IMG/VR virus record: IMGVR_UViG_3300042876_000248
Coordinates: 1 to 41,971 of that record
Strand: one strand, 5' to 3'
From: a virus
DNA length: 41,971 nt
The translations under genes and the position numbers were made by a program. The stretch's first letter is position 1. Each line of letters opens with the position of its first letter. A model generated the notes under the pieces. That model was not told the origin of the DNA. It did not search any database and saw only the letters and a program-made list of their open reading frames with translations. This document shows, one piece after another, positions 3,256 through 41,971 of the stretch.

Positions 3256-4686
3256 TTAACGGTTGTACGCTTCTACTCTACCAATTGGTCCATACTCCAC
3301 TGCTCCATGAAGTGCAAGAGCTAACGCCATTACACAATCCGTTTCCATCCCTTTGTCATCCATGTTTTTCGGGTAAGTGAGAAGTTCTTGATAGAGTTGA
3401 GGAATGTAGGGCATGGAAAGTTGTTTGGTTCCAAGAACTCTTTGAAGGTTTGTAATGAGGTTTGATTTTTTCGCTGGGTTGCCTGCAAATTGGTAAGGAA
3501 TGAAGGAGATGCCAAGATCCCTTAACCATTCTGTTTGTAAATCCCCAATGGATGCTGTTGCATCAATGACAAATTCACCGTAGTATTCATTGTGAACTCT
3601 AAGTAGTTCTCCCAGTATTTCCTCCCACGTTACTACTCCTCCACCACCTCTGTAATAGTTGACTATGGGGTAGGGTGGACCTGAGGTAATGTCAAGTGTG
3701 AATGCTACTGTATAATCTTCCTTTCTTCCAAAGTCGACTCCTGTAATATAGAAGCGTCCAGTGGAAGGAGAGATGGGGAGTTTCAAGGAATCTTTCACTG
3801 CTTCGTCTACAAGATTCTGAGGAAATGCCAGAGAACTTTCATCAATGAATTTTCCTTCAATGCGTTCTGAGATTAGTGAGTCGTTTCTTGTTGAGAGGAA
3901 TTGTGAAATTCTTGTTTGATCTGCAAATGGATTATCTCTTGAGTCAGCAAACATGCTGTATATTCTTTCTTTGAAGAAAGGATTAATCTGTCCGTTTTCT
4001 GGTCTTATTCCACTTCTAAAAACAATATAGTATTCTCCCTTTGCTTTCGGTGTTCCAAATCCTGCAATTACTCCTCCACGCCTCCAAGTACGGGGTGTGA
4101 GGACTTTTTCTACGCAGTGAATTAAACTTCTGACATCGGCAGGTTCGTTTATTAAAACCAAATCATATGATTGACCCTCAACGTGTCTTCCTTTGTCATG
4201 CAGTCCAACCGCTTCAATGATTGTTCCGTTTTTTAACCTAATAAAAGGGTGGGTTTTGAGACGACTACCTGTACGAACTTCATCTACACGATATTTTAAA
4301 ATTGGAGAGTCACGAAATCCCTGTTCAACGTGTTCCCATAATTCAACTGCTTGTTTCATTTCAGGTCCAGTACAGAGAATGTTGTATTGTGCGTTTGTAT
4401 ATTCTTTGTAGCTTTTCCACGGCTTGTTTGGTTTAAATTTATACACTCCCCAATGCATTGCCATCCATTTGGCAGTCCACGTTTTACCTGAAGAATTTCC
4501 TCCCGACATCCATCCTTCGTCAAAGTTTCCCGTCATCATTGTTTGTATAAATTCCTCTTGGTGAGGGAGTGCGTAGAAGACTTTTCCCTGAGGTGAACAG
4601 AAGTTAGTTACAAATAGATTTAGGTTATATCTTCCCCGTTTATATAGATCAACGAGTTCATTGTTTAGGAGCTGATATTTGTTCAT
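3256..4686 (-). CDS. terL: Terminase large subunit (476 aa)
   Basis: The packaging motor ATPase-nuclease that drives DNA into the procapsid through the portal. Residues 62-69 (GGNSSGKT) are the Walker A loop, 174-181 (YDLVLINE) the Walker B strand with the catalytic Glu. The C-terminal RNase H-like nuclease starts at GVDFGRKEDYT (Asp318) with the second acidic residue in VIDAT (Asp375) and a probable third near Asp456 (TDCVMAL). Length is normal for the family. The gene overlaps the putative small subunit by 29 bases. Unusually for a compact phage, the terminase operon runs opposite to the portal and capsid genes. Confidence 0.95.
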   Translation of the reverse strand: MNKYQLLNNELVDLYKRGRYNLNLFVTNFCSPQGKVFYALPHQEEFIQTMMTGNFDEGWMSGGNSSGKTWTAKWMAMHWGVYKFKPNKPWKSYKEYTNAQYNILCTGPEMKQAVELWEHVEQGFRDSPILKYRVDEVRTGSRLKTHPFIRLKNGTIIEAVGLHDKGRHVEGQSYDLVLINEPADVRSLIHCVEKVLTPRTWRRGGVIAGFGTPKAKGEYYIVFRSGIRPENGQINPFFKERIYSMFADSRDNPFADQTRISQFLSTRNDSLISERIEGKFIDESSLAFPQNLVDEAVKDSLKLPISPSTGRFYITGVDFGRKEDYTVAFTLDITSGPPYPIVNYYRGGGGVVTWEEILGELLRVHNEYYGEFVIDATASIGDLQTEWLRDLGISFIPYQFAGNPAKKSNLITNLQRVLGTKQLSMPYIPQLYQELLTYPKNMDDKGMETDCVMALALALHGAVEYGPIGRVEAYNR

Positions 4687-23964: not shown

Positions 23965-24208
23965 CTTCCTTAATTCTTCCTTTCTGGTCCACAATTGCTA
24001 CATCACCATTTGGTAGTACCTTCCTTGACTTAATATCCTCATGCCATACCTTTTCGTTTTTATACCACTTTAGTTTTCTCGCCTCTTGTGCTGTGAGTGG
24101 TCTACGTCTTCTAAACTCCTCTGGATGATTAATTTTATTTACACAATCATCACATCTAAACACACCATCTGGAACTTCTTTTGAACAATCGTAACAGTAA
24201 GAACTCAT
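23942..24208 (-). CDS. Zinc-ribbon protein (88 aa), last gene of the sugar operon
   Basis: The N-terminus CYDCSKEVPDGVFRCDDCVNK is a zinc ribbon (two CxxC). The rest is basic (EEFRRRRPLTAQEARKLKWYKNEKVWHEDIKSRK) and ends in a short beta stretch (NGDVAIVDQKGRIKEV). It is coupled to the upstream glycosyltransferase by ATGA and converges on the rightward 121-aa gene with a 23-base overlap. Its role is unknown. Confidence 0.65.
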   Translation of the reverse strand: MSSYCYDCSKEVPDGVFRCDDCVNKINHPEEFRRRRPLTAQEARKLKWYKNEKVWHEDIKSRKVLPNGDVAIVDQKGRIKEVRPKLQS

Positions 24209-25281
24209 TGAATTGCTTTCTGAAATATCCTTGTAATCAAGTCAAGTGAATACTTCTTCTTTATACTTGATGAAAATACCATGGCATCGTTCTTGTAACT
24301 TTCGTAGTGTTTATATACGTCCCACATCAAGGATTTCAACTCGTCAAGCGATGGTTCTATCCAGTGGGGTACAACTCCTACATCAAAAGATAGATCATAC
24401 CTTGCTTCAACAGGCATACTTGTATTTATGGGGATACCGAGATGGGCATATTCATGCATTCCACTGCCATTTGTTACTATGGTTGGAACTCCTCTAGCCA
24501 TCATCTCAATTGGTGGCAATCCCAATCCCTCTCCACGACTAGGAAACACAAACAAATGGGTTTTGTCCTGTAGTCTTTCTAGTTCAGCTCTGTCCATGTT
24601 TTCTACAATTACTGTTATATTTGGTTGGTTGGGAATTGTATTAATATCGCTTTCATTGTCATGTTTTCTTCCTTTTAGAATCAACTCAACACTCTCTTGT
24701 CTACCAAATACTTCTATAAATGCTTTAACAACTAAATCCCATCCTTTACGTTTAAAGTCAGAAAAAGCATTGTAATGGAGTATTCTAAAAGGATTGTTGT
24801 AATTAGGTTGGACTACAGAGAAATTATCCGTTCCTAGTCTTATTACATTTATAGACTGAGTTATACCAGAATCTACAAACACCTTCTTGCACCATTCAGT
24901 AGGGACCAATATTAAGTCAAATGTCGCACAATATTCACGCCACCCTTGAGGTAATACGTCTGCTTCAAACATTGTAATGAGTATTGATCTTTCCCCTTCC
25001 TCTTTCTCAATAGGTCTGGGATAACCGCAATATATTTTGGTTTTACTCTCTGGATTAAATTCAAAACAATCATTCAAAAGTTCCACGACTCTGCCATATC
25101 CACCAAAAGGATATTGAGCCTGTGAAGGAAAAGCTGCGTCAAGTTTAACTTTCTGCCTAGTGATTCTATTTTCTTGCCCATCGAGCTTTGCATAGCCCAT
25201 TTTAAGCAGTTCTTCTTCACGGGAAGCGTCTACTTCCACCTCTAATCCCCTCGGATTTTTCATCCAAATAAATGTTCTCAT
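24205..25281 (-). CDS. GT4-like glycosyltransferase with N-terminal NPRGL domain (358 aa)
   Basis: GT-B glycosyltransferase: the C-terminal half has FVFPSRGEGLGLPPIEMMARGVPTIVTNGSG (about residues 245-275), the nucleotide-sugar site with the E-x7-E-like pattern of GT4 enzymes; FRILHYNAFSDFKRKGWDLVVKAF starts the second Rossmann domain. It transfers a sugar from a nucleotide donor to an unknown acceptor. Residues 4-33 (FIWMKNPRGLEVEV...LLKMGYAKL) are an extra small domain almost identical in pattern to the stand-alone 68-aa protein at 34351-34557. Coupled by four-base overlaps on both sides. Expected to act in the cytoplasm. Confidence 0.85.
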   Translation of the reverse strand: MRTFIWMKNPRGLEVEVDASREEELLKMGYAKLDGQENRITRQKVKLDAAFPSQAQYPFGGYGRVVELLNDCFEFNPESKTKIYCGYPRPIEKEEGERSILITMFEADVLPQGWREYCATFDLILVPTEWCKKVFVDSGITQSINVIRLGTDNFSVVQPNYNNPFRILHYNAFSDFKRKGWDLVVKAFIEVFGRQESVELILKGRKHDNESDINTIPNQPNITVIVENMDRAELERLQDKTHLFVFPSRGEGLGLPPIEMMARGVPTIVTNGSGMHEYAHLGIPINTSMPVEARYDLSFDVGVVPHWIEPSLDELKSLMWDVYKHYESYKNDAMVFSSSIKKKYSLDLITRIFQKAIQ

Positions 25282-25655
25282 ACTTGTTCAGCCATTAATT
25301 CCCATAACTTTCTAAACCAAAATTCCTGATAATAAGCAAATGGTTCAGTATTATCTTCACCAACTTCCACACCTCTATCTTGAAAGATACTAATAACTAA
25401 ATGACTAATCTCATGGATCAAAGTAAATAGTCCATCTTTTTTCTTTATGTAAACAAAATATACAGTGCCAGTAATTTGAACATCCTTATTGTGAGACTTA
25501 TCAGTTTTTCCAAACATTCCGTCAATATCTGGACCGCTTTCCATTGGTAAAAATCCATTTCTTTGAAGGATTTTATTAGCTCTTTTATAGGAACAGTCAT
25601 TTATAAATAGGATTTCCTGTCTATAAACTGGATCGAATATTCTTTTGGTTATCAT
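25278..25655 (-). CDS. Small HExxH metallopeptidase-like protein (125 aa)
   Basis: HEISH (residues 81-85) in the context LFTLIHEISHLVISIFQDRG, followed by acidic residues in VGEDNTEPFAYYQEFWFRKLW, fits a zinc metallopeptidase core with the third ligand among Glu100/Glu104. The N-terminal half is beta-rich with ITGTVYFVYIKKKDG. Similar small HExxH proteins occur near structural genes in other phages. It is embedded between two glycosyltransferases by four-base overlaps. It could mature a virion protein or be an inactive structural domain; the substrate is unknown. Confidence 0.65.
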   Translation of the reverse strand: MITKRIFDPVYRQEILFINDCSYKRANKILQRNGFLPMESGPDIDGMFGKTDKSHNKDVQITGTVYFVYIKKKDGLFTLIHEISHLVISIFQDRGVEVGEDNTEPFAYYQEFWFRKLWELMAEQV

Positions 25656-26701
25656 TGTAATTTTTCTAAAAACCTTTTTATTTCTTCAGCTTCTTTGTCA
25701 AAATCTACGACTGATTTGAAATTTTCGTAGGTGGATTTAGACATCTCATCAGAATTGGATCCTATGATCTTGTCCCTTATTTGCTGTGGTGATAGTCCAT
25801 CTATAATTATTGAATTACTACTGGTGATTAAACTTCCTCCTAACTTTCCTTGATAATCCGATAGTCTTGTAATTATGGGTCTACCAACAGCAGCAGCATT
25901 ATGGATTATGTGTCCATATCCATCTCCCCACCTTTTAACATGAAATACAAACTGTGCTTCACGCATTTTCTCAGCCAATGCCTTTGCTCCATGTGCAGCA
26001 CCATCACGACAGGAACCTCCAAACGATCTAAATTCCCAATCAGGCATTAGTTTTTCGAGTTCCAAAAACAATTCCCAATCTTCTTTGTAATGTTCAGCAG
26101 TACCTAAACAGTTAATGAAGCTATATACCTTTTTGCTTTGATTAGGTTCTCCATAATGGAAAATATCTAAGTCAAATTCTTGATGGTATGTAACCATATT
26201 TGTATTTACAGGAACATTCGGAATAATGGCAGAAGCTAAGATATTATCAGCATACCCTTGATCTATATTCCAAGAGTTACCCACTTGGTATATAAACTTT
26301 GGTTTATTAGGGTGAATCGCACAAAGTTTCTTAAAAGACTCAATGTGTTGTGGAATGGACGCAATCACAATGTTTATATCAAGGTTAAGAAATCTACTTA
26401 GTGGAATTGCTTTGTGGTAGTAGTTATATTCTGGATCCCAAACGTAAAAGATCCCTTCCTCTATCTTCTGTACTCTATTAAGGGGCAGTGATCCGTCTTT
26501 GGGTATGTAGTCATCTCTAACTCCCAAGTATTGTTCAACAGTCTCAGGGGCGTTATTATATATCTCTGCCATCCTCCAATAACCCTCATCTAACCATTCT
26601 TTCCCAATTGGTCTATATAATTTTCCACTTAATCTTTCTTCAAAAAGAAGTCTAAGGGAATTGTATAACGACAAATGATGCTGGTCTGAAAATATTTTCA
26701 T
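25652..26701 (-). CDS. Glycosyltransferase, GT-B-like (349 aa)
   Basis: The C-terminal region FVFHVKRWGDGYGHIIHNAAAVGRPIITRLSDYQGKLGG (about residues 250-290) has the look of a GT-B donor site with a conserved His/Gly stretch, preceded by a Rossmann-like segment (KVYSFINCLGTAEHYKEDWELFLELEKLMPDW). The N-terminus (SDQHHLSLYNSLRLLFEERLSGKLYRPIGKEW) has no signal peptide. It is coupled by four-base overlaps to both neighbours. Sugar donor and acceptor are unknown. Confidence 0.75.
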   Translation of the reverse strand: MKIFSDQHHLSLYNSLRLLFEERLSGKLYRPIGKEWLDEGYWRMAEIYNNAPETVEQYLGVRDDYIPKDGSLPLNRVQKIEEGIFYVWDPEYNYYHKAIPLSRFLNLDINIVIASIPQHIESFKKLCAIHPNKPKFIYQVGNSWNIDQGYADNILASAIIPNVPVNTNMVTYHQEFDLDIFHYGEPNQSKKVYSFINCLGTAEHYKEDWELFLELEKLMPDWEFRSFGGSCRDGAAHGAKALAEKMREAQFVFHVKRWGDGYGHIIHNAAAVGRPIITRLSDYQGKLGGSLITSSNSIIIDGLSPQQIRDKIIGSNSDEMSKSTYENFKSVVDFDKEAEEIKRFLEKLQ

Positions 26702-27447
26702 GGTTTGAAGAATGGATATAACTGATCTAAGTTTCGTAGACCTTCATCTACAATCTTAGAACGTGTTAGAAATCTACTGTCCTGTTCAACCAATAATCTT
26801 CCAGCATAGTAATTATAGATCGAGAACTCTTGAGGTTTATATACATCATTATATCTTCCTAGTAGGCAGAGAGTATAATTATGGGTTAGTCCAGCCAAAT
26901 GGATATAATCTTGTTTTTCATGGAATCCTAGTTCTTCTAATCCTTTAAACTTGGCTTTATCCTTCAATTGCTCTGTAAACCAGCCAAAATGATCTGACAT
27001 ACCAGGTTTTATCCCAAACTCCTTACTGGTCTGTTCTATCATCCTCCTACTCACCACGATGCATGCAGGGTGCAGTCTACCTTCAATAAGGGCATGTATT
27101 ACAGTGTCATCTTCAATGTTAAACAGTTTTTCGAGGAATTTTTGATCTTTGTACAAGAAATCCTGCTCTGTAAACCAAATATATTCTGCTTTAGAAACCG
27201 CCAAGCAAGTATTTACTGCCACATCCCGCCAATCTTGACCACTCTCTATCTTTGGAGTTTGGAGAAAGGTAATTTCCCATCCACTAAAAGACTTACGGAC
27301 AAAGTCTTCATAGTCTTCATCGTGATCTCCGTAGGAAAAACAAATAATCACCTTCTCAAACATATGTCTGAAGCGTTGTATGTTCCAGCGAAATACAGGG
27401 AAATCAATTCCAACTGGCCAAACTACTAAAAGATCTGGGCGTATCAT
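26698..27447 (-). CDS. Glycosyltransferase, GT-A-like (249 aa)
   Basis: A short GT-A enzyme: PDLLVVWPVGIDFPVFRWNIQRF opens the nucleotide fold, and AEYIWFTEQDFLYKDQKF (TEQDF at 93-97) supplies the acidic metal-binding motif in place of the usual DxD. HPACIVVSRRMIEQ and DHFGWFTEQL follow where acceptor-side residues lie. It belongs to the coupled operon with four-base overlaps. Specificity cannot be read from sequence. Confidence 0.75.
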   Translation of the reverse strand: MIRPDLLVVWPVGIDFPVFRWNIQRFRHMFEKVIICFSYGDHDEDYEDFVRKSFSGWEITFLQTPKIESGQDWRDVAVNTCLAVSKAEYIWFTEQDFLYKDQKFLEKLFNIEDDTVIHALIEGRLHPACIVVSRRMIEQTSKEFGIKPGMSDHFGWFTEQLKDKAKFKGLEELGFHEKQDYIHLAGLTHNYTLCLLGRYNDVYKPQEFSIYNYYAGRLLVEQDSRFLTRSKIVDEGLRNLDQLYPFFKP

Positions 27448-28499
27448 ATCCCCATTAACTCCTTGTATATTTTCTTTCGTTTGTTAATTTTGTCGTTACT
27501 AAGTTGGTACTGATTGATTATATTTTCGGTAGCCTTCCAGTACATTTCTCCAAAGTATTCAATATCTTTACACTCTCCTCTGGTTTCTTCATATGCTAGT
27601 TGCCACCACATGACTCGTCTTTCAAATTCGTTTTTGTCCCCTTCTGAGTGGATATAGTCTGGGAGTTTTTCTTCTCCTTTTAGATCAGGATTAGTTCGGT
27701 GTGCTAGTGGCTTTCCGTAATCGTCCCGCAGAATCCCGAATATTCCAGAAGATACAGAACCTAGATGCAACCAGGGACAATTTCCATCCCATAGGTTTTG
27801 ATTACTCTCCTTTTCTTCAAAGTCGTTTGGGTGGGCATGATACTGGGGAACATTATATATTTTTAATCCCATAGCTCTAAGTTGAATTGAAGCCCATACA
27901 AAAGTATCTCCTGCTGCTTGTTCCTCTGGAACAGTTAAATCCAACTCTTTTATAAATTCTCCTCTTTGCCAAACCTTAGCTGCAAAGTTCATATCAGTTT
28001 TAAGCAGATCGTTTCGTCTAGCAAAAAAGAAGTTAGGCCAAAAGTGTGGTCCCTTATCTCCATATCCTTCGTAATTCAGGCCATACTTTTCTTTCGCAGC
28101 TTGTATTAAAGAATCAGCAGATGATCCACGGCCAGAAGCTACAATATCCGCATACCCTTTTTCAATTCTGTCAAAGCATTCAGTAACCATATTAGGTCTA
28201 AAGATAACAGCATCATCTTCTATGAACATTACTAGATCTTCAGTGGCTCTTAATGTCATTTGGGTAAGACATGGACCATGGTCATTTGCTCTACGCTTGG
28301 TTATTAATCTAACTTTGGGATGCCTTTTGACGTAATTACACATGAAGTTAAACACTGGTTGTTCAATAGGAGAGTTGATATAGATGTAGAGTCTATCTAC
28401 TTCATTCTGCCAAATCTCTCTAAAGAATCGAAAGAAAAAGACTAGGCAGTAGGGATCGCCAGGAGAAGGAAGGAATGCACATCTATATATTTTTCTCAT
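27444..28499 (-). CDS. Glycosyltransferase, GT-A-like (351 aa), paralogue of 29460-30401
   Basis: GT-A fold with FIEDDAVIF (EDD at 94-96) as the probable metal site. The start PSPGDPYCLVFFFRFFREIW...VDRLYIYINSP and the segments CFDRIEKGYADIVASG and PNFFFARRNDLLKTDMNF closely parallel the gene at 29460-30401, so the two arose by duplication. About 35 residues longer than its paralogue. Likely adds a different sugar or linkage. Overlaps the next gene (28483) by 17 bases. Confidence 0.8.
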   Translation of the reverse strand: MRKIYRCAFLPSPGDPYCLVFFFRFFREIWQNEVDRLYIYINSPIEQPVFNFMCNYVKRHPKVRLITKRRANDHGPCLTQMTLRATEDLVMFIEDDAVIFRPNMVTECFDRIEKGYADIVASGRGSSADSLIQAAKEKYGLNYEGYGDKGPHFWPNFFFARRNDLLKTDMNFAAKVWQRGEFIKELDLTVPEEQAAGDTFVWASIQLRAMGLKIYNVPQYHAHPNDFEEKESNQNLWDGNCPWLHLGSVSSGIFGILRDDYGKPLAHRTNPDLKGEEKLPDYIHSEGDKNEFERRVMWWQLAYEETRGECKDIEYFGEMYWKATENIINQYQLSNDKINKRKKIYKELMGI

Positions 28500-29463
28500 A
28501 GGTATATGGAATAATCCAATCGTGATAATTAAGAAAACGATTATAGTATTCTTTCCAGTAGGGCGTTACTAAAAATAAAGACTGCTCGAACTCAGTAGGA
28601 ACTTTATATTTGGTTGTAATAGACATCATGTTTACCCATGCCAGCATTCTCATTAACTCTTTCGGAGTTGCAGCACCCGCATATCCACTAGTCAGTTCAA
28701 ATACTTTTGTAAAATTACGGATGTGATAATAACCTAAGTTTTCTTTTAGCGGTTCACCTTCCAAAAATTCCTCTTCTTCAATGATTCCATCCTCCCTAAG
28801 ATATAAACTTCTTCTGTCGTCTTTCATTTCGACAAACTTAGCACCTTCAATTCCTAACAGTTGAAGCGTCATGTAACCCATAGAGTCTGTCCAGTCACCC
28901 ACCTTTGTTTGATAGTCCAAATTCCTGATTTTAAAGTCTTGATTAAACTGCTTGGGACTAAAATCTATATCGATCTTTTTTAAGAGTGAACTGTCTATGA
29001 AAGTTAGATATGGAGCGAACCTAAATCTCTTTCCACGTTCTTTATTAGCATCTAGGATGGTAGAAAATGGCAGTTGGAATCCACCAGAACTATCGAGAAT
29101 TCCTTTAACTGTATTTTCTAGTCCAAATCCTTCGTCTAATACTTTAAGATCGTAGATAATAGTGTCCTGATCCATTATCAGTATATAGTCTGTGTGAATT
29201 TCTTTGAGGTATATATTCATGTTGTCCCAATGATCCTGTTCTGGTGCTTTCTCGTATTGAAGTTTATTGCCAAATACATCTTTGAGCCACACTATGTCCT
29301 TTTCAGTGAAGTTCCACCCAGAATCTATTATTAGAATTTTATCTATCTTCTTTTCCGCTTCTTTTAAAAATACCTTTTGGAATTCAAACAGCACCCGATA
29401 GTATTCACGTTCTCTCATCCTTTCGTTTGCAAAAAATGGAATAATGATTCCGTTTGTTTTCAT
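28483..29463 (-). CDS. Glycosyltransferase, GT-A-like (326 aa)
   Basis: DYILIMDQDTIIYDLKVLDEG (DQD at 98-100) is the metal-binding motif of a GT-A glycosyltransferase, preceded by the donor-fold segment KILIIDSGWNFTEKDIVWLK. The middle has GILDSSGGFQLPFSTI and KVGDWTDSMGYMTLQLLG, likely acceptor side. It is not closely related to the neighbours at 27444 and 29460. Coupled to the upstream gene by four bases. Confidence 0.78.
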   Translation of the reverse strand: MKTNGIIIPFFANERMREREYYRVLFEFQKVFLKEAEKKIDKILIIDSGWNFTEKDIVWLKDVFGNKLQYEKAPEQDHWDNMNIYLKEIHTDYILIMDQDTIIYDLKVLDEGFGLENTVKGILDSSGGFQLPFSTILDANKERGKRFRFAPYLTFIDSSLLKKIDIDFSPKQFNQDFKIRNLDYQTKVGDWTDSMGYMTLQLLGIEGAKFVEMKDDRRSLYLREDGIIEEEEFLEGEPLKENLGYYHIRNFTKVFELTSGYAGAATPKELMRMLAWVNMMSITTKYKVPTEFEQSLFLVTPYWKEYYNRFLNYHDWIIPYTYEKNI

Positions 29464-30401
29464 GGATTTATAACCTCCTCAAAATAACTAACCATCCTGT
29501 CAACATCTCCTTGAATACCAGTCTTCTCGATGAACGTTTTTAAGACTCTTTCGTACTCTCCCGAAAAGTTAGGGATCTTATCTTTATCTGGAAAATGCTT
29601 CCATATTAATGTTCTAAACGCAGCCGTCTTTGTAAATACCCACCTATTGTTTACAGAATTAACTTGTCCTACAAAGGCATTTATTTTGTCCTCATCACCA
29701 TCTCTAATGGCCCTGTAGTCTTCTCCATTACCAAAACCTAGCATGCTACTTCCCATCTGCCTGACGTGTAGCCATTTATAAGCTGAAAACATAAGAGAAT
29801 AGGTATTATTTGGATGAAGCATATTAGAAGGTATTTCACAGACTCTTGGATGTTTGTTGGCAATCTGAGCAGAGATCCAGCCAAAACAGTCAAAGGCTAC
29901 ACCCATATCTTCTCTAGGCATAAAGTCCATATCTATGGATTTAAAGTATTTTGTACGGCAAAAGAAAAAGTTTCTTGCCCATCCTCTACCAATTGATTCA
30001 GCCAAAGGAGGAGGAATAACTTGATAATCTGAGGCTACTAGATCATATTTTTGTTTCTCAATCTTGTCGAAACAATCATTGACTATACCCTTGCCAAATA
30101 TAAATCCATCACTCTCTATAAGCCCTAATAATCCTTCTCTCACTTTTGGGATGAGGATTTGATTTCTAGTTTCTGGATTAGTTGGATGGAAATAAGGAAA
30201 GGCAACAATTTTGTGGAAATGAGATAGCAACTGATTCTGATACGCTATTGTTTCGACTGTTGAATTAAGAGGATGATATGCTATTGATAGGTAGACCTTG
30301 TCTACTTCTCCTCCCCAATACTTTTTGTAAAGATGAAGCCAAAAGTGAAGTAGAAACGGATCTCCGTCAAAGGTTGTTACGATAGCTCTCTTTAATCTCA
30401 T
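29460..30401 (-). CDS. Glycosyltransferase, GT-A-like (313 aa), paralogue of 27444-28499
   Basis: Start set at ATG 30401 because it overlaps the TGA of the HAD-like gene (ATGA), and because MRLKRAIVTTFDGDPFLLHFW aligns with the start of its paralogue at 27444. The metal site appears as GLIESDGFIF, where the paralogue has EDD. CFDKIEKQKYDLVASD and RNFFFCRTKYFKSIDMDF are shared segments. A role as a second sugar transferase is likely; the altered metal motif may change the metal or donor preference. Confidence 0.75.
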   Translation of the reverse strand: MRLKRAIVTTFDGDPFLLHFWLHLYKKYWGGEVDKVYLSIAYHPLNSTVETIAYQNQLLSHFHKIVAFPYFHPTNPETRNQILIPKVREGLLGLIESDGFIFGKGIVNDCFDKIEKQKYDLVASDYQVIPPPLAESIGRGWARNFFFCRTKYFKSIDMDFMPREDMGVAFDCFGWISAQIANKHPRVCEIPSNMLHPNNTYSLMFSAYKWLHVRQMGSSMLGFGNGEDYRAIRDGDEDKINAFVGQVNSVNNRWVFTKTAAFRTLIWKHFPDKDKIPNFSGEYERVLKTFIEKTGIQGDVDRMVSYFEEVINP

Positions 30402-30760
30402 ATCATTATTTTTGTTACATCTGGTAGTTCTTTCCACACATCAACTCCGCATGTTTGTTTATAAATCTTAAAATCGTTGTCAATCCAAATATCAGGTTTA
30501 ATAAACTTGGCAATTGCAATTTTCCATTCTGCTTGAGTTTTCAGGTCACGGGGTAACTCAGGCTGCATATAATGAATCTCATCGTATTTAATCCCCCAGC
30601 TTGTAAGTTCTAGCTCAGTTTCAAATATCCTTTCAGGATTGCGACAGCTTACGATATGAACTTTATGTTTGTTTTCTTTCTTTCTGAGGGTGTATATAAA
30701 CCACTGGAAAAAACTTGGATTAGAAGTTATTACTCCATCTATATCAATTAAAAATAGCAT
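30398..30760 (-). CDS. HAD-like phosphatase (120 aa)
   Basis: FLIDIDGVIT at the N-terminus is the HAD superfamily DxDG[V/T] motif (Asp6 nucleophile, Asp8 acid). IVSCRNPER is the second motif (Ser/Cys), and IDNDFKIYK near residue 93-101 the fourth acidic motif (ND). Length is small, as in cap-less HAD enzymes. In a sugar operon it may remove phosphate from a sugar-phosphate or nucleotide intermediate. Substrate unknown. Coupled by ATGA to the downstream glycosyltransferase. Confidence 0.7.
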   Translation of the reverse strand: MLFLIDIDGVITSNPSFFQWFIYTLRKKENKHKVHIVSCRNPERIFETELELTSWGIKYDEIHYMQPELPRDLKTQAEWKIAIAKFIKPDIWIDNDFKIYKQTCGVDVWKELPDVTKIMI

Positions 30761-30761
30761 A

Positions 30762-31400
30762 TCATCTCCACCTATGGTCGTTTACTCTTGTCTTATAAAA
30801 GATCGTAATTCCTCGTGGAGTTGGAAGATGAAATACCCTTAACAGATCATCTTTTACCCAATCTTGAACTATCTCTGGTATCTCTCCAAATGGCCAGTTA
30901 GTCATTCCATGAGCTGTAATTCCACTTTGTCCCATAGCATTACTTAAATCGTGAATAATGATAAAACCACCTTCTTTAACGTGGGGAAAAACCCTGACTA
31001 ATTCTTTGAAACGAATGTCTGGTTCTGTGTCAAGGAGAGCAATGTCGTAGTCAAAGTTAATCTCAAAGTCCTCAACTTTCATTAGGTGAGGAACAATATG
31101 ATCTAATACTTCTAACTTTGTCCATATATCAAGGTAGTCTTGCTGGTGTTGAGGATCGAACTCGATTGTATCTAACAGACCTTTTTTATTTTCTTTCAAA
31201 GCTAAACCGATATAGCTTGCACCTATTCCTTTGTGTGTTCCCGTCTCAAGTATTCGTTCAGGTTTTGTAGCTATTACAAGTCCATACAGAAAAGTACCTA
31301 CCTCAGTTTCAACCCCACCTGTATTGAAACACCTATATCCAGAATCAGTAGGTTCTTGTAACAAAGGTAAAAACTGTGCTATTTGTTTGGTTGGATTCAT
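30762..31400 (-). CDS. SAM-dependent methyltransferase (212 aa)
   Basis: Class I fold: PERILETGTHKGIGASYIG (about residues 44-62) is the SAM-binding motif I (E/DxGxxxG), LLDTIEFDPQHQQDYLDIW holds the acidic ribose contact, and FDYDIALLDTEPDIRFKEL with GGFIIIHDLS are motifs IV-V. It resembles methyltransferase_24 enzymes that act on sugars or small molecules in surface-glycan clusters. Probably O- or N-methylates a glycan. It sits between the HAD-like gene and a glycosyltransferase. Confidence 0.8.
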   Translation of the reverse strand: MNPTKQIAQFLPLLQEPTDSGYRCFNTGGVETEVGTFLYGLVIATKPERILETGTHKGIGASYIGLALKENKKGLLDTIEFDPQHQQDYLDIWTKLEVLDHIVPHLMKVEDFEINFDYDIALLDTEPDIRFKELVRVFPHVKEGGFIIIHDLSNAMGQSGITAHGMTNWPFGEIPEIVQDWVKDDLLRVFHLPTPRGITIFYKTRVNDHRWR

Positions 31401-32434
31401 GCTAGTGAGTCAATAAACTTTCTCCATTCTTCTCTGATTTTGTCTTTCGCAAAGTATTCTATTGCACTTGCTCTGCCTGCCTTTCCAATCTTGTCTGCAA
31501 GTCCAGAGTCATTTAAAAGCGTCATACAGTAGTTCCGCAGCTCATCTACATTATTTGACCAAAAACCATTTACTTCGTTTTGTATTAGACTGCTAACTTC
31601 ATACAAATGATGATCCTTGTATATTGACTCTGTAAACTTTGGACCTAGAGCCACTATGGGAATTCCTGTCATCCATGCTTCAATGAAATTAAGAGCATAG
31701 CTGGATGGTTGAGTACCAGTATAGAGATAGACACGATTCAACCTAAGTTCTTTCTTCAAATCTTCATATCCCAAAAACCCCCCTGATACTTCTCCTAAGT
31801 CTTCGTTATTGGGGCCATATACGATTGTAGGTAGTCCAGATGTTATTAAGTTAAATACCTGCCAGTTACAGTGTTCACCACGGGATTTCATTGACTGAGT
31901 GAAGTTGACTATATAGTTCTTTTCACCAGTCCAGCCTTTAAACTCCTCTGGATCTTTGTAAAAACGAATAATGGCATCTTCTCCAAGATAGCCTGGAATC
32001 TCCCTTTCCTTTGGAGAATACCTAACTATCTTCATTCCTTTGTCTCTAAATGGTTTTAATGATTCTTCAACCTTATCTATTGACTGCCCTATCGTTCTCC
32101 ACACAACTTTCTTTCCTTTAAAAGCATCCCAATTTTTGACGATCCATCTAGGCATGTGCATTACAATAATAATGTCAAAGTTGCTAATAAACTCAGGAGT
32201 TAAGTAGTCCTTAGCATCTTGTCCAGGGTACATCCCACCAATCTTGTGGTATTGGTCAACAATATATGGATCGTATCTGAGTCCTTTAACGTCTGGTCTA
32301 GCATATGCGTTCCCTGGATTTTGAGGTTCTACATATGCACCAGGAGAAAATACATCATGTCCTAGTTCGTGTAGAATACTAACTTCATCATATTCAAGTA
32401 TACTATGGGCTGATAAATACAATATTCTACTCAT
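31397..32434 (-). CDS. Glycosyltransferase, GT-B-like (345 aa)
   Basis: N-terminal acceptor half starts ILYLSAHSILEYDEVSILHELGHDVFSPG; the C-terminal half contains LNRVYLYTGTQPSSYALNFIEAWMTGIPIVALGP (about residues 230-263), the donor-binding segment of GT-B enzymes with the Glu of FIEAW, followed by NGFWSNNVDELRNYCMTLLND, typical of GT4 C-termini. No membrane segment. Coupled to both neighbours by four-base overlaps. Confidence 0.8.
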   Translation of the reverse strand: MSRILYLSAHSILEYDEVSILHELGHDVFSPGAYVEPQNPGNAYARPDVKGLRYDPYIVDQYHKIGGMYPGQDAKDYLTPEFISNFDIIIVMHMPRWIVKNWDAFKGKKVVWRTIGQSIDKVEESLKPFRDKGMKIVRYSPKEREIPGYLGEDAIIRFYKDPEEFKGWTGEKNYIVNFTQSMKSRGEHCNWQVFNLITSGLPTIVYGPNNEDLGEVSGGFLGYEDLKKELRLNRVYLYTGTQPSSYALNFIEAWMTGIPIVALGPKFTESIYKDHHLYEVSSLIQNEVNGFWSNNVDELRNYCMTLLNDSGLADKIGKAGRASAIEYFAKDKIREEWRKFIDSLA

Positions 32435-32637
32435 TTTATATATCCCAATTTCTGTCTTCTGTTAAGTTGTCTCAGTTTCAGTTCTAATTCCTCTATCTGT
32501 TCTACCTTTGTAACTATTATGAATTCGTCTGGATCGTCCATATCTTTAACCTCTTTTACAAGGTTATATATTCGATTAGCATAGAAATCAGTGGCTAATA
32601 CAAACGTACTCTGTGTTTTTTCTATCTCCTTATCCAT
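32431..32637 (-). CDS. Small charged protein in the sugar operon (68 aa)
   Basis: Residues 10-50 have an alternating alpha/beta pattern (TFVLATDFYANRIYNLVKEVKD, DEFIIVTKVEQIEELELKLRQL) and the C-terminus is basic. No family recognised. Overlaps of four bases downstream and 16 bases upstream keep it in the operon. Perhaps a subunit or regulator for a neighbouring enzyme; unknown. Confidence 0.65.
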   Translation of the reverse strand: MDKEIEKTQSTFVLATDFYANRIYNLVKEVKDMDDPDEFIIVTKVEQIEELELKLRQLNRRQKLGYIK

Positions 32638-33236
32638 ACTGTTTGCCGTTCATCAAGCACACATCTCCAATTATTCTCAAACAAATATCGTTTAGCGAGT
32701 AAACTCTTTCCACCATTATCTATGTCATTGTCATCAATCATAACTATGGAATATGGAGTCAGTTGCTTGTAGACAGAGAGAAGTTCTCTTAATGTATGCT
32801 TCTGAGAGGCACTAGCATCACTTCCAGCTTCAGTAGGACAATCTAGTGAGTCTAAGTAAAGAAGATCAATTGGCCTGCTAAACTTCTCTAGGTAAGCTAC
32901 TGAATCACTTAGGACGTATGTAACATTATCCCTAAAATCGTTAGTTACTCTCTTTGCCATTTCAAGATTCTCTGGATTGTTGTCAATCGTAAATAACTGT
33001 TTTTCATATTGTTTGCAGAACCTACCAAAAATGTAAGTTGAATATCCAGCAGTCCAATCATTCTCTTGTCTAACAGAACCAGTCTCAACAATCAGTCTTG
33101 ATTCTTCCTGCTGAAAAAATAAGTTGAGAGCTGCTTTAAAGGTGTAATATCTACCCCCAGGCTTTGTCTTGAATTCATTGAACCAAGAGTCAAAGTTTAC
33201 GAAGTTCTGAACGTCTTGTTGTGTAGGATTCGTCAT
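32622..33236 (-). CDS. SAM-dependent methyltransferase (204 aa)
   Basis: Class I methyltransferase: RLIVETGSVRQENDWTAGYST (about residues 46-66) corresponds to the SAM loop, KQLFTIDNNPENLEMAKRV carries the acidic ribose-binding residue, and IDLLYLDSLDC with YSIVMIDDNDIDNGG are the later strands with acidic residues. Unrelated in detail to the methyltransferase at 30762-31400. Probably modifies a glycan or its precursor. Start overlaps the previous gene's stop by four bases. Confidence 0.78.
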   Translation of the reverse strand: MTNPTQQDVQNFVNFDSWFNEFKTKPGGRYYTFKAALNLFFQQEESRLIVETGSVRQENDWTAGYSTYIFGRFCKQYEKQLFTIDNNPENLEMAKRVTNDFRDNVTYVLSDSVAYLEKFSRPIDLLYLDSLDCPTEAGSDASASQKHTLRELLSVYKQLTPYSIVMIDDNDIDNGGKSLLAKRYLFENNWRCVLDERQTVWIRR

Positions 33237-34354
33237 AGTGTTTCAGCAATTTTCATTAATCTTTTTCGCATCATTCCTCCCACTTTATCAGAATTAAAGT
33301 TTTCTATTACAAAGTTTCGTGCAATCTGTCCAACCTCCATAGCTTTATCTCTGTTATCGTATACAAATCTCATCTTACCTCGTAGATCAGTTATATCTAC
33401 ATCTGCCCAATTCTGATTTGGAGTATAGTAAGGTCTGTCATCTTCCTGAGTAACAGGAGTCAAGTTGTAGTTGGTAAGATACGCATTTGTTTCATTTAGA
33501 TATTCATGTATTCCCCCATAGTTAGTTGAGATTATCGGTTTACCCATCATCATAGCTTCCATTTGCGGTCTGCCCCATCCTTCCCCTCTATGAGCTGATA
33601 CAAAACAATCACCTGTAACATGTAACCTCCATGTTTCTTCATTGGTCAAAAGATCACTGCTATATAGAATTCTAGGGAACTTCTTAATTCCACTTCCTTG
33701 CTTAAGCTCATTAATCCAGCCTTTAACTTTTTGGTGCATTTGAAACGTGTAGTTGTCTCGAAAAGTCTTGAGAAGCAGTGAGACATCTTGATCTCCTTCA
33801 AACTCTTTCCAGTAAGCAGTTAAAAGGGCTTCAGGATTCTTTCTTTTGGTCCACTCGAAGATTGAATAGAAAAGAAAACCTCTGTGGTTGGGAATTATAA
33901 ATGGCTCATAATCTTCTGGTTTTACTTCTACTATCGGTTCAGGAAAAACGTATATTGGTACTCTAACTCCTGACTTAACTAGAATCTTTTTGGTTTCAGG
34001 GCTTCTTGTCCATATTTCGTCTAATCGGTTGCAGAACCATGACCAGTTATTTGGTAGCTTGTCAGTTTCCCAAACAAGTACACCAATATGATGTTTGTTA
34101 GGTTCGAGATAGTTTAGATATAAGTCTGGGGTAAGGTGAATAATGACTGCTTGATAGTCAATAGGCTTTCCTTCTAATCTTTCGGCTATCTTCAAAGCCT
34201 CACCATAGTCAGCAGATTCTCTAACGAATGAAGTTCTAGCGGTTGTTAAAGGAATCTGAGCTTTGTTCAAAGAGAAAATAGTCTGTCTTGCTGCTTCAGC
34301 ATATCCAGAATGATCTCCAAAGGCTGATATATATTTAACTGCAATATCTTTCAT
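33233..34354 (-). CDS. GT4-like glycosyltransferase (373 aa)
   Basis: Clear GT4 pattern: ALNK-type start KYISAFGDHSGYAEAARQTIF, and a donor-site segment FVSAHRGEGWGRPQMEAMMMGKPIISTNYGG (about residues 250-281) with the E-x7-E-type Glu residues. SRGEG/HRGEGxG links it to the enzyme at 24205-25281. LKTFRDNYTFQMHQKVKGWI and RILYSSDLL precede the donor site. It is the second gene of the sugar block, coupled to the NPRGL gene. Confidence 0.85.
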   Translation of the reverse strand: MKDIAVKYISAFGDHSGYAEAARQTIFSLNKAQIPLTTARTSFVRESADYGEALKIAERLEGKPIDYQAVIIHLTPDLYLNYLEPNKHHIGVLVWETDKLPNNWSWFCNRLDEIWTRSPETKKILVKSGVRVPIYVFPEPIVEVKPEDYEPFIIPNHRGFLFYSIFEWTKRKNPEALLTAYWKEFEGDQDVSLLLKTFRDNYTFQMHQKVKGWINELKQGSGIKKFPRILYSSDLLTNEETWRLHVTGDCFVSAHRGEGWGRPQMEAMMMGKPIISTNYGGIHEYLNETNAYLTNYNLTPVTQEDDRPYYTPNQNWADVDITDLRGKMRFVYDNRDKAMEVGQIARNFVIENFNSDKVGGMMRKRLMKIAETL

Positions 34355-40308: not shown

Positions 40309-41313
40309 CTAGCTTTCTGATATGGGATTATACTCTGTATCTTTGAGTCCAAATGTCCACGCAACAGCTTCATGTGCGCTAACTGCATTAGGTTTAACTC
40401 TCAAGTAATAAACTCTACTCGTTGATGAGTCTTTTACCTTGACGTACCTTGCAACATGCTCTGGATCATCTTTTAAGTCAACTTCCAGAAGTTCACCAAA
40501 TCTATCCTTTTGAATACTCCTTGCTTTTAAGGCTTTGATAAATCTTTCTCCCATCCTCTCTTGAATAACACGCCTTACCTCAAGGTTTTCTTCTTTCTGC
40601 CAATCAGATTTTGATAATTTATCAGGAGTTTCTATAATTTTTTTGTTTGCCCTTACTCCATGCCAGAAGTAATAACCAACGCCATCACTCCACTCAACCG
40701 CTTTAACATTTTCGTTATGCAGTCTTCCTTCTTCATCCCTTGTTAATCGTATAGGCTTTCTAACCAACCACGCTTCTTTTTCATATAATCCATATCCGAT
40801 TACATTCTCTGAAACTTTAATAAGCCATATTAACTTGTTGGGTTCCAATAAATCATTAAAAGTCTTGTAAAAGGATAAATCATCGCTGTCATACCAAGCC
40901 CTAACTGAATCCCTAACTGAATCCCAAACTGAATCCCAAACTGAAGCCCTAACTGAATCCCTAACTGAATCCCAAACTGAATCCCAAACTGAATCCCAAA
41001 CTGAATCCCAAACTGAAGCCCTAACTGAATCCCTAACTGAATCCCTAACTGAATCCCAAACTGAATCCCAAACTGAAGCCCTAACCGCTTTTGTAAAAGA
41101 TTCGGGAGATTCAAACCATTTTATTTTTTTAGGCAATTCCAGCCCTGCAACTTTATATGCGTTATTCATACAAAGCTCCACTTCCTTGTCTGATAGTCTC
41201 TGCTTGGTAGATAAATATATCTCAATCTGCTTTTGAGCAAATTTCTTGCAATAAGCTAACTGAGCTTTAGTAAGCTCCTTTTGTCCTTTTTTTATTTTTA
41301 ACTCTTTTTTCAT
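40309..41313 (-). CDS. DUF6745-like protein with tandem SVWD/SVRD repeat (334 aa)
   Basis: Three parts: a helical N-terminus (1-75: KKGQKELTKAQLAYCKKFAQKQIEIYLS), fifteen 4-residue units [AD]SV[WR] (about residues 79-138), and a C-terminal region (140-334) with NKLIWLIKVSENVIGYG, AVEWSDGVGYYFWHGVRA and a final VRKP/DLKDDPEHVARYVKVKD...EAVAWTFGL. The layout resembles DUF6745-type proteins as I recall them; unverified. The repeat probably stacks as a solenoid. ATG 41313 has AAAGGA upstream. The function is unknown. Confidence 0.65.
   Translation of the reverse strand: MKKELKIKKGQKELTKAQLAYCKKFAQKQIEIYLSTKQRLSDKEVELCMNNAYKVAGLELPKKIKWFESPESFTKAVRASVWDSVWDSVRDSVRDSVRASVWDSVWDSVWDSVWDSVRDSVRASVWDSVWDSVRDSVRAWYDSDDLSFYKTFNDLLEPNKLIWLIKVSENVIGYGLYEKEAWLVRKPIRLTRDEEGRLHNENVKAVEWSDGVGYYFWHGVRANKKIIETPDKLSKSDWQKEENLEVRRVIQERMGERFIKALKARSIQKDRFGELLEVDLKDDPEHVARYVKVKDSSTSRVYYLRVKPNAVSAHEAVAWTFGLKDTEYNPISES
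40900..41079 (-). repeat. Fifteen near-identical 12-bp units
   Basis: Units CC[TA]-AAC-TGA-[AT/AG]C differ at only two or three positions, giving DSVR, DSVW and ASVW. They fall into higher-order blocks of four to six units, each opened by ASVW. Near-identity at the DNA level points to recent expansion by slippage or unequal crossing-over and to length variation between strains. Confidence 0.9.
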
Positions 41314-41333: not shown

Positions 41334-41549
41334 ATTAGTGGAGGAGGTAAGGATTTGTTAGTCACCTTACATGAGTGAATCCATAACGATTCGGCCCATC
41401 TCAAGTAGTTCGATCTCTAGTTGTTACAAGTTGCGATCTTGTCCTCTAACCCGTTGATCTCCCGCCTGGTTCTCTTGCTCTCACCAATCCGTTCTCCTAC
41501 TTTCGTAAACGGCCTTTGCGTCTACCTGTTCCGCCACTCCTCCACTAAT
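41334..41549 (-). ncRNA. 216-nt structured RNA with tRNA-Leu-like 5' half
   Basis: ATTAGTGGAGGAG (from 41549) and CTCCTCCACTAAT (to 41334) form a perfect 13-bp closing stem that includes a 7-bp acceptor-like GGAGGAG/CTCCTCC. The 5' side continues TG-GCG-GAACAGGTAGA-CGC, a typical tRNA-Leu D-arm. Inside are a stem CCGTT/AACGG with a GAAA-capped inner hairpin, an anticodon-like arm ACAAG-ATCGCAA-CTTGT, GAATC/GATTC, and GTAAGG/CCTTAC next to the acceptor strand with an expanded loop (CAAAT reminiscent of a T-loop). No CCA end is encoded. A normal tRNA is excluded by length and the disrupted anticodon arm; it may be a tRNA-like structure or ribozyme. GC is higher than in its surroundings. Confidence 0.55.
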
Positions 41550-41906
41550 CTACTCAATATTGTCAATTTCAACATCTTTACATAAATCAAGTCCAAATGC
41601 TCTCACTCCGTGGTAGCGAATAGTTACTTGCTTTCGAGACTTGTTAGCCTCTTTAGCCTTTTCTATCAAACCTCGATTATCTCTGTTTATACAGTACATA
41701 TCCTCTTGCGAGGATGAATTATCAGTTTTAAAGTAAACATCGTAATTTCTAAATATATATCCGTTTTGATCTATTGCTGTTATGTAGCCTGAATGTTCAC
41801 CCTCTCCAATACTGGATAAATGAATTCCAGCTACAAGGAATAAAATTAGTCCTACGACTAATGATCCAGTTACCAATAAAACTAACTGACCAATATTTTC
41901 ATTCAT
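41550..41906 (-). CDS. Single-span membrane protein with GEHSGYITA domain (118 aa)
   Basis: Residues 8-29 are a membrane segment (LVLLVTGSLVVGLILFLVAG), followed by an outer or lumenal beta domain: GEGEHSGYITAIDQNGYIF, VYFKTDNSSSQEDMYCI, then a helical segment and VTIRYHGVRAFGLDLCKDVEIDNI with two Cys that may bond. From memory, similar small EHTGYV...SSQEDxYC proteins are frequent in Patescibacteria genomes and their phages. ATG 41906 has GGGGGTGA upstream. Its start region is the terminal repeat. Confidence 0.75.
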   Translation of the reverse strand: MNENIGQLVLLVTGSLVVGLILFLVAGIHLSSIGEGEHSGYITAIDQNGYIFRNYDVYFKTDNSSSQEDMYCINRDNRGLIEKAKEANKSRKQVTIRYHGVRAFGLDLCKDVEIDNIE

Positions 41907-41971
41907 AATTTTCACCCCCTTTAGAGGGGCTTGGAATCAGCTCTTTTACTTCTAACTCCAAGCCTAAGTAT
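41811..41971. repeat. Right copy of the direct terminal repeat
   Basis: Identical to bases 1-126 up to 41936, then diverging in the hairpin arms (41937-41958) and matching again to the end. Covers the 5' part of the membrane-protein gene and its leader. See the left copy at 1-162. Confidence 0.85.
41907..41971 (-). promoter_or_regulatory. Right copy of the two-hairpin leader
   Basis: Here the long hairpin reads CTTGGAGTTAG with CTGATTCCAAG (11 pairs counting G-U), and the second hairpin CCCC-TCTAAA-GGGG overlaps the ribosome-binding site of ATG 41906. The inner arm sequence differs from the left copy although pairing is kept, so the structure rather than the sequence may be selected. Confidence 0.5.

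Follow-up and report, generated by a model that had tools for sequence, protein, structure and literature searches.

A tRNA-Leu-like RNA in a viral genome record points to a widespread class of noncoding phage RNAs that seems not to have been described

What kind of RNA is encoded where viral DNA opens and closes like a tRNA-Leu gene and carries a long run of further bases in between? This question is raised by a locus in a 41,971-base IMG/VR virus record, the whole of which is referred to here as the window. An earlier note had placed there, between two leftward genes, a 216-nt tRNA-Leu-like RNA with a 13-bp closing stem, and had offered four readings of it: a tRNA-like decoy, a processing signal, a reduced intron-bearing tRNA or a new RNA class. 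Both the flanking genes and the coordinates proved exact, the RNA being encoded by the minus strand between 41549 and 41334 (Table 1) in the order ATTAGT-GGAGGAG-UGGCGGAACAGGUAGACGC-(147 nt)-GUAAGG-UGACUAACAAAU-CCUUAC-CUCCUCC-ACTAAT. All 13 pairs of the closing stem are Watson–Crick, and the remaining features of that description, namely the tRNA-Leu-like acceptor and D-arm, the exact closure of the acceptor at the 3′ end, its extension by ATTAGT/ACTAAT and the missing CCA end, are seen as well, the 120 or more extra bases amounting to a 147-nt insert. The minus strand of the element folds at −70.3 kcal/mol (z −3.35), with none of 200 shuffles as good, against z −2.11 for the plus strand; the insert alone gives z −0.85. 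ARAGORN called no tRNA or tmRNA in the window, and the RNA matched neither tRNA nor any other RNA family of Rfam.

Table 1. Parts of the tRNA-Leu-like RNA and its flanking genes in the window.
Feature	Position	Strand	Basis or remark
Upstream ORF, 121 aa, no family match	41550..41915	-	Stop codon abuts the RNA, whose first base directly follows it
Whole tRNA-Leu-like RNA with 13-bp closing stem	41334..41549	-	Pairing, fold, covariance-model match
6-bp extension, 5′ side, ATTAGT	41544..41549	-	Sequence; U at −1
Acceptor stem, 5′ strand, GGAGGAG (positions 1–7)	41537..41543	-	Sequence
U8 and D-arm, UGGCGGAACAGGUAGACGC	41518..41536	-	3-bp GCG/CGC stem; A14, A15, A17, G18 G19
147-nt insert in place of anticodon and variable arms	41371..41517	-	CAU (U48) at its end
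T-arm-like hairpin GUAAGG/CCUUAC, 6 bp	41347..41370	-	Loop UG-ACUAA-CAAAU (UGACUAACAAAU)
ACUAA, 5-nt T-loop insertion	41358..41362	-	Other copies have here a hairpin beginning ACUA
Acceptor stem, 3′ strand, CUCCUCC (positions 66–72)	41340..41346	-	
Extension, 3′ side, ACTAAT	41334..41339	-	A at position 73; no CCA
Downstream gene, 334 aa, DUF6745 domain	40309..41313	-	ATG 20 nt after the RNA; Shine–Dalgarno-like GAAAGGA

The window RNA is one of a class of noncoding phage RNAs that is widespread and, it appears, has not been described before. A search of phage records with the short D-arm returned 124 records; among the 60 listed, most have no tRNA annotated at the matching place, and these include SPP1, Grass and other Bacillus subtilis phages, Listeria B054, Leuconostoc Ln-9, Lactobacillus Lb338-1, Weissella PWc, Enterococcus EfsSzw-1 and phi3T. 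Scanning viral contigs with the D-arm gave at least 120 matches, of which, among the matches listed, about three-quarters are class members and most others are true tRNA-Leu genes. With a pattern combining D-arm and T-loop, genomes of bacteria and archaea yielded another 58 copies, almost exclusively in Firmicutes or MAG contigs. The class comprises at least 157 copies, 128 of them non-redundant, mainly from Firmicutes phages and prophages. Their common plan, from 5′ to 3′, is a variable acceptor strand, the D-arm, a hypervariable segment, usually CAU, a hairpin and the acceptor partner; what is kept is a shell made of a 7-bp covarying acceptor, the D-arm UGGCGGAAyAGGUAGACGC, U48 and a 6-bp hairpin with the loop UGCAAAU. 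The insert is hypervariable, ranging from 8 nt (in the shortest copy, L047) to about 177 nt, and the total length is 60–251 nt. No family of Rfam 15 reports class members, and the class is not described in the full-text literature searched, most subscription papers lying outside its reach. Its existence explains why a number of tRNA calls have failed when phages were annotated, and it represents a well-conserved RNA left unannotated in much-studied phages, such as SPP1, phi3T, Listeria B054, and Lactobacillus and Enterococcus phages.

The earlier note had made its case hang on covariation in homologues and on the retention of the closing stem; the acceptor covaries strongly, and the stem is kept across the homologues. 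All four Watson–Crick pair types occur at each of acceptor pairs 1–6 in 78 non-redundant copies, in which pair 7 is always G–C and the T-stem also covaries, and a 35-sequence alignment contains 133 double-change cells, against 31 after shuffling and at most 41 after sliding, both sets having been chosen with pairing required. For 55 genome copies chosen on the D-arm and T-loop only, the acceptor being disregarded, 377 of the 385 possible acceptor pairs form, compared with 209 in shuffled controls (maximum 240), with 7/7 pairs in 47 copies and 6/7 in the other eight. The D-loop and T-loop are nearly invariant across the class, the search pattern itself accounting for part of the D-arm constancy, and the equivalents of G18 G19, U54, C56 and A58 are kept. 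The base preceding the T-stem is U in all 78 copies, which fits the A15:U48 contact of tRNA. Nine copies other than that of the window, referred to as type B, carry a longer insertion in the T-loop, usually a hairpin and always starting ACUA. Three records (L082, L122 and L205) each contain two back-to-back copies, 2–6 nt apart, as in tRNA arrays.

The covariance model that the earlier note had called for, R1, was built from 35 type-A copies with the window copy left out, and its sole match in the window is this element (47.2 bits, E 1.9e-11). Since true tRNA-Leu genes score nearly as high with R1 (up to 46.8 bits), the bit score cannot be the sole test, and membership of the window RNA is decided by its features: it has the T-hairpin and the CAU, and it lacks an anticodon arm. 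Its acceptor forms 7 of 7 pairs directly before a D-arm of the class type, its T-hairpin stands as CAU-GUAAGG...CCUUAC-CUCCUCC (6 bp, GG/CC end, (C/U)AU before it), and its loop UG-ACUAA-CAAAU is a short type-B form found only here; ten pattern matches to such a short ACUAA T-loop in the viral contig scan included none in the class. Because type-B insertions always begin with ACUA, the window loop is a reduced type-B loop. The 6-bp extension ATTAGT/ACTAAT is likewise particular to the window copy; most members have 0–2 extra pairs, with none beyond the 7 bp in 58 of 128 and six or more in 5 of 128. It is hardly credible that the RNA is merely a decayed or intron-bearing tRNA-Leu gene, as the closeness of its D-arm and acceptor to tRNA-Leu and the R1 scores of true tRNA-Leu genes might suggest, given that ARAGORN detects no anticodon arm in the window, that Rfam yields neither a group I intron core nor any other match for this RNA, and that many copies covary strongly around a different, fixed T-loop. 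The class minimum of 8 nt stands where an anticodon arm needs 17 nt, which contradicts the reduced intron-bearing tRNA of the earlier note, whereas its new RNA class, now with many homologues and strong covariation, and its processing signal are favored. The CCA end and A73 of tRNA-Leu also fail as common properties (no CCA in the window; A73 in 70 of 128 copies), although CCA addition after cutting is possible.

How such an RNA may be produced is indicated by its flanks. U is found at −1 in 58 of 128 copies (about 37 at neighboring positions), A at 73 in the 70 just mentioned (about 47) and U at 74 in 64 (about 40); A73 and U74 are preferences, not rules, and the three enriched bases coincide with the cut positions of RNase P and RNase Z. 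CCA is present in one copy and absent from 127. Uracils just 3′ of the discriminator activate B. subtilis RNase Z. RNase P cleaves minimal substrates that keep just the acceptor together with the stem and loop of the T-arm; its contacts include N−1 and, in the T-loop, positions 54, 56 and 58, and it accepts the phage C4 and M3 RNAs as substrates (PMC11143913). CCA-less tRNAs in B. subtilis are matured by RNase Z (PMC8097732). On account of the flank signals, the kept RNase P contacts and the RNase Z route, we favor excision from operon transcripts. In the predicted course of events, the element, which has no recognizable promoter of its own (no promoter-like sequence was found directly upstream of class elements), would be read as part of the operon and would most likely be excised as a short, stable, tRNA-shaped RNA by two host enzymes: RNase P, cutting on its 5′ side, and RNase Z, which serves tRNAs lacking an encoded CCA, cutting on its 3′ side. 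In this product, the shell, composed of the acceptor, D-arm, T-arm and elbow contacts, would enclose an exchangeable guest replacing the anticodon and variable arms. We speculate that the free RNA acts in trans through its shell; the partner should be a factor that binds the tRNA elbow, because the shell and not the insert is conserved. The chances seem to us about even that this reading holds as a whole, namely that of a noncoding phage RNA which tRNA-maturation enzymes of the host cut out, which is a stable tRNA mimic and which is interchangeable with the skipping-rope RNA discussed below. It leaves the insert without an explanation, and the lack of the RNA in TerL relatives of the window phage speaks against it. 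Several features count against excision. RNase P measures 12 bp of acceptor and T-stem, whereas these sum to 13 bp in the class; the continuous 13-bp closing stem of the window copy should hinder cutting at the usual site; and positions −1 and 73 pair in excess (70 against 55 of 128), as do −2 and 74 (66 against 52), both above chance with P about 0.003.

The genes around the element recur to some extent. Those directly upstream include late transcription activators (PHROG 248 and 36; 26 against 0 downstream), and those downstream include HNH endonuclease, terminase-type and portal genes (about 48 against 2 upstream), one terminase cluster having been named by eye from its Walker-A region and the others from Pfam. 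A Shine–Dalgarno sequence with a start codon follows within 60 nt in 30 of 127 cases (13.5 in the control), and a terminator-like site lies downstream in 27 of 118 (against 8). Such a setting would suit a cis element of the operon mRNA, in which the tRNA-like fold controls how strongly the downstream genes are expressed, either by marking an RNase P cut or by blocking 5′–3′ decay, the released piece doing nothing. We consider this explanation conceivable but rather unlikely, in that terminator-like sites occur in the antisense controls too (15 of 118), the downstream gene is on the opposite strand at about a fifth of the loci, and the neighbors vary, the element being found in tRNA arrays (Grass, EfsSzw-1 and L053), beside tmRNA, after hup (phi3T) and before the scaffold gene (SPP1), so that no single gene is served. 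A leader of one fixed gene was rejected, as the neighbors differ among loci.

Other structured RNAs were observed as well. A ROOL RNA lies directly upstream of the tRNA-Leu-like RNA in Lb338-1 (L020, 860–1432), and a tmRNA directly upstream of that in EfsSzw-1 (L025, 1145–1495). In SPP1-like phages, short tRNA-like modules, which have closing stems and T-arms of the sequence GGGUUCRAUUCCCGG, are lined up between genes 9 and 11 in arrays that vary from phage to phage (L016, 1600–1660; L217, 300–470; L218, 300–700; L219; L220), the SPP1 tRNA-Leu-like RNA being one module of such an array. In two other phages, at L008 (770–912, minus strand) and L009 (304–373, plus strand), tRNA-Leu-like RNAs with a canonical UUCGAAU T-loop stand directly before a gene start; ARAGORN calls no tRNA there, and the Rfam tRNA score is 37–40 bits.

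Turning to the window phage itself, no homologues of the element were found through either of the two flanking genes, and the RNA is absent from four TerL relatives, some of them short contigs. The TerL gene of the window lies on the same strand as the RNA and, once the two ends are connected, some 4 kb upstream of it. An RNA serving in packaging or late transcription, like phi29 pRNA or the antitermination RNA HK022 put, would be in keeping with the place of the element between late activator and terminase genes in many phages; this possibility is nevertheless very slight, considering the absence from the TerL relatives and the fact that the Grass, phi3T and window elements do not stand directly before terminase. 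To our knowledge, neither phi29 pRNA nor HK022 put keeps the tRNA elbow contacts. Elsewhere in the window, a tandem repeat at 40905–41085 in the DUF6745 gene gives a run of RASVWDSVWDSVRDSV in the protein, and a long minus-strand island at 24205–34354 contains several glycosyltransferase genes and many unknown genes. Positions 1–160 and 41812–41971 form an imperfect repeat of the contig ends with a variable middle, which suggests that the genome is circular or has terminal redundancy, and that strains vary.

The insert may be asked whether it, and not the shell, does the work, the shell merely protecting a guest RNA as a tRNA scaffold. Consistent with this idea, the hypervariable inserts nonetheless fold more stably than shuffled sequences on average (mean z −0.83), the unrelated B. 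subtilis phages SPP1 and Grass carry a similar insert within different acceptor stems, and in one case (L056, element at 3831, reversed locus) the guest is a tRNA-Lys gene. It is an improbable explanation in our judgment, the shortest copy having an insert of just 8 nt and the complementarity of inserts to their own phage being not above control. By eye, the inserts of L096/L128 and L082/L205 contain tRNA-like pieces. An antisense small RNA within the insert was rejected on the longest complement to the own contig, on average 9.15 nt, against 9.00 nt for foreign inserts. The free RNA might, on the other hand, be a decoy, as the earlier note had suggested, binding and so titrating a factor, of the host or of a rival, by which tRNAs are attacked or handled (a tRNA-targeting toxin or defense system, or a tRNA enzyme). 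Its sporadic presence across unrelated phages, the retention of the elbow but not of the anticodon, CCA or a strict A73, and the vicinity of tRNAs or tmRNA in some phages (within 800 nt in 19 of 107 cases, against 8 in the control) agree with such a role, which is possible for the window RNA and, on balance, unlikely: lacking an anticodon arm, the RNA cannot be directed at anticodon nucleases, the decoy has no known target, and the location before packaging genes is left unexplained.

For the preferred reading, an excised tRNA mimic, a further line of evidence comes from the skipping-rope RNA (RF02924). At the site downstream of hup in SPbeta-like phages, phi3T, SPbetaL7 and SPbetaL1 hold the tRNA-Leu-like RNA (R1 46–70 bits), and Goe14 and SPbetaL5 hold skipping-rope RNA (31 bits, E below 1e-3, under the gathering score of 36.7). 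SPR, SPbetaL8 and SPBc2 have a sequence nearly identical to the latter, with similar right flanks, and the SPbetaL2 site holds neither RNA. Because this site is occupied by one or the other, the two RNAs look interchangeable. Both are found in G021, within one tRNA array and at separate places. RF02924 has no match at the gathering score in the window or in L015–L028, and among 50 further records it matches only G021 (at the separate place) and Goe14. Since RF02924 does not report the tRNA-Leu-like class and R1 does not report skipping-rope, the comparison of sequences establishes a common place and a common plan, not common descent. We put forward tentatively, leaning somewhat against it, a broader proposal, namely a modular superfamily of tRNA-mimic phage RNAs with skipping-rope and tRNA-Leu-like RNAs as interchangeable branches, each being a host-excised shell around a guest and directed at a universal host factor binding the tRNA elbow in the lytic switch. 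The tRNA-Leu-like class gives the orphan skipping-rope RNA a tRNA-like reading, and with it a testable biochemistry involving RNase P, RNase Z and tRNA-elbow binders.

Among known RNAs, the class is related in kind to the phage tRNA-like and skipping-rope-type RNAs. With tRNA-Leu it shares the 7-bp acceptor, the UGGCGGAA..GGUAGACGC D-arm, U48, a T-loop-like hairpin and the preference for A73, but it has no anticodon or variable arm and no CCA, carries an insert of 8–177 nt in their place, and differs in its 6-bp T-stem, with G at 55, and in A at 17. tmRNA (ssrA) lacks an anticodon arm and has a tRNA-like domain in which a large insert separates the D and T parts, a layout also seen in the class; the latter differs in its missing CCA and Leu-type D-arm, RF00023 has no match in the window at E 10, and EfsSzw-1 possesses a separate tmRNA adjoining the element. 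Phage C4 RNA is cut out of a longer transcript, and C4 and M3 are RNase P substrates, as the tRNA-Leu-like RNA, another phage RNA, putatively is; unlike C4, it has no Rfam C4 match, and its insert has no antisense match to its own phage. Skipping-rope RNA differs from the class in its 5-bp D-like stem, its 5-bp second hairpin with a different loop, its 8-bp closing stem, and the lack of the tRNA-Leu D-arm and the UGCAAAU loop, and possesses a pseudoknot with covariation support (PMC7779021). By manual, unscored comparison with the RF02924 model consensus, however, both RNAs, each occurring in phages, consist of a closing stem ending in G–C, a D-like hairpin that contains GGAAA and has a GG loop, a variable rope, and a U directly followed by another hairpin, which is stacked on the closing stem.
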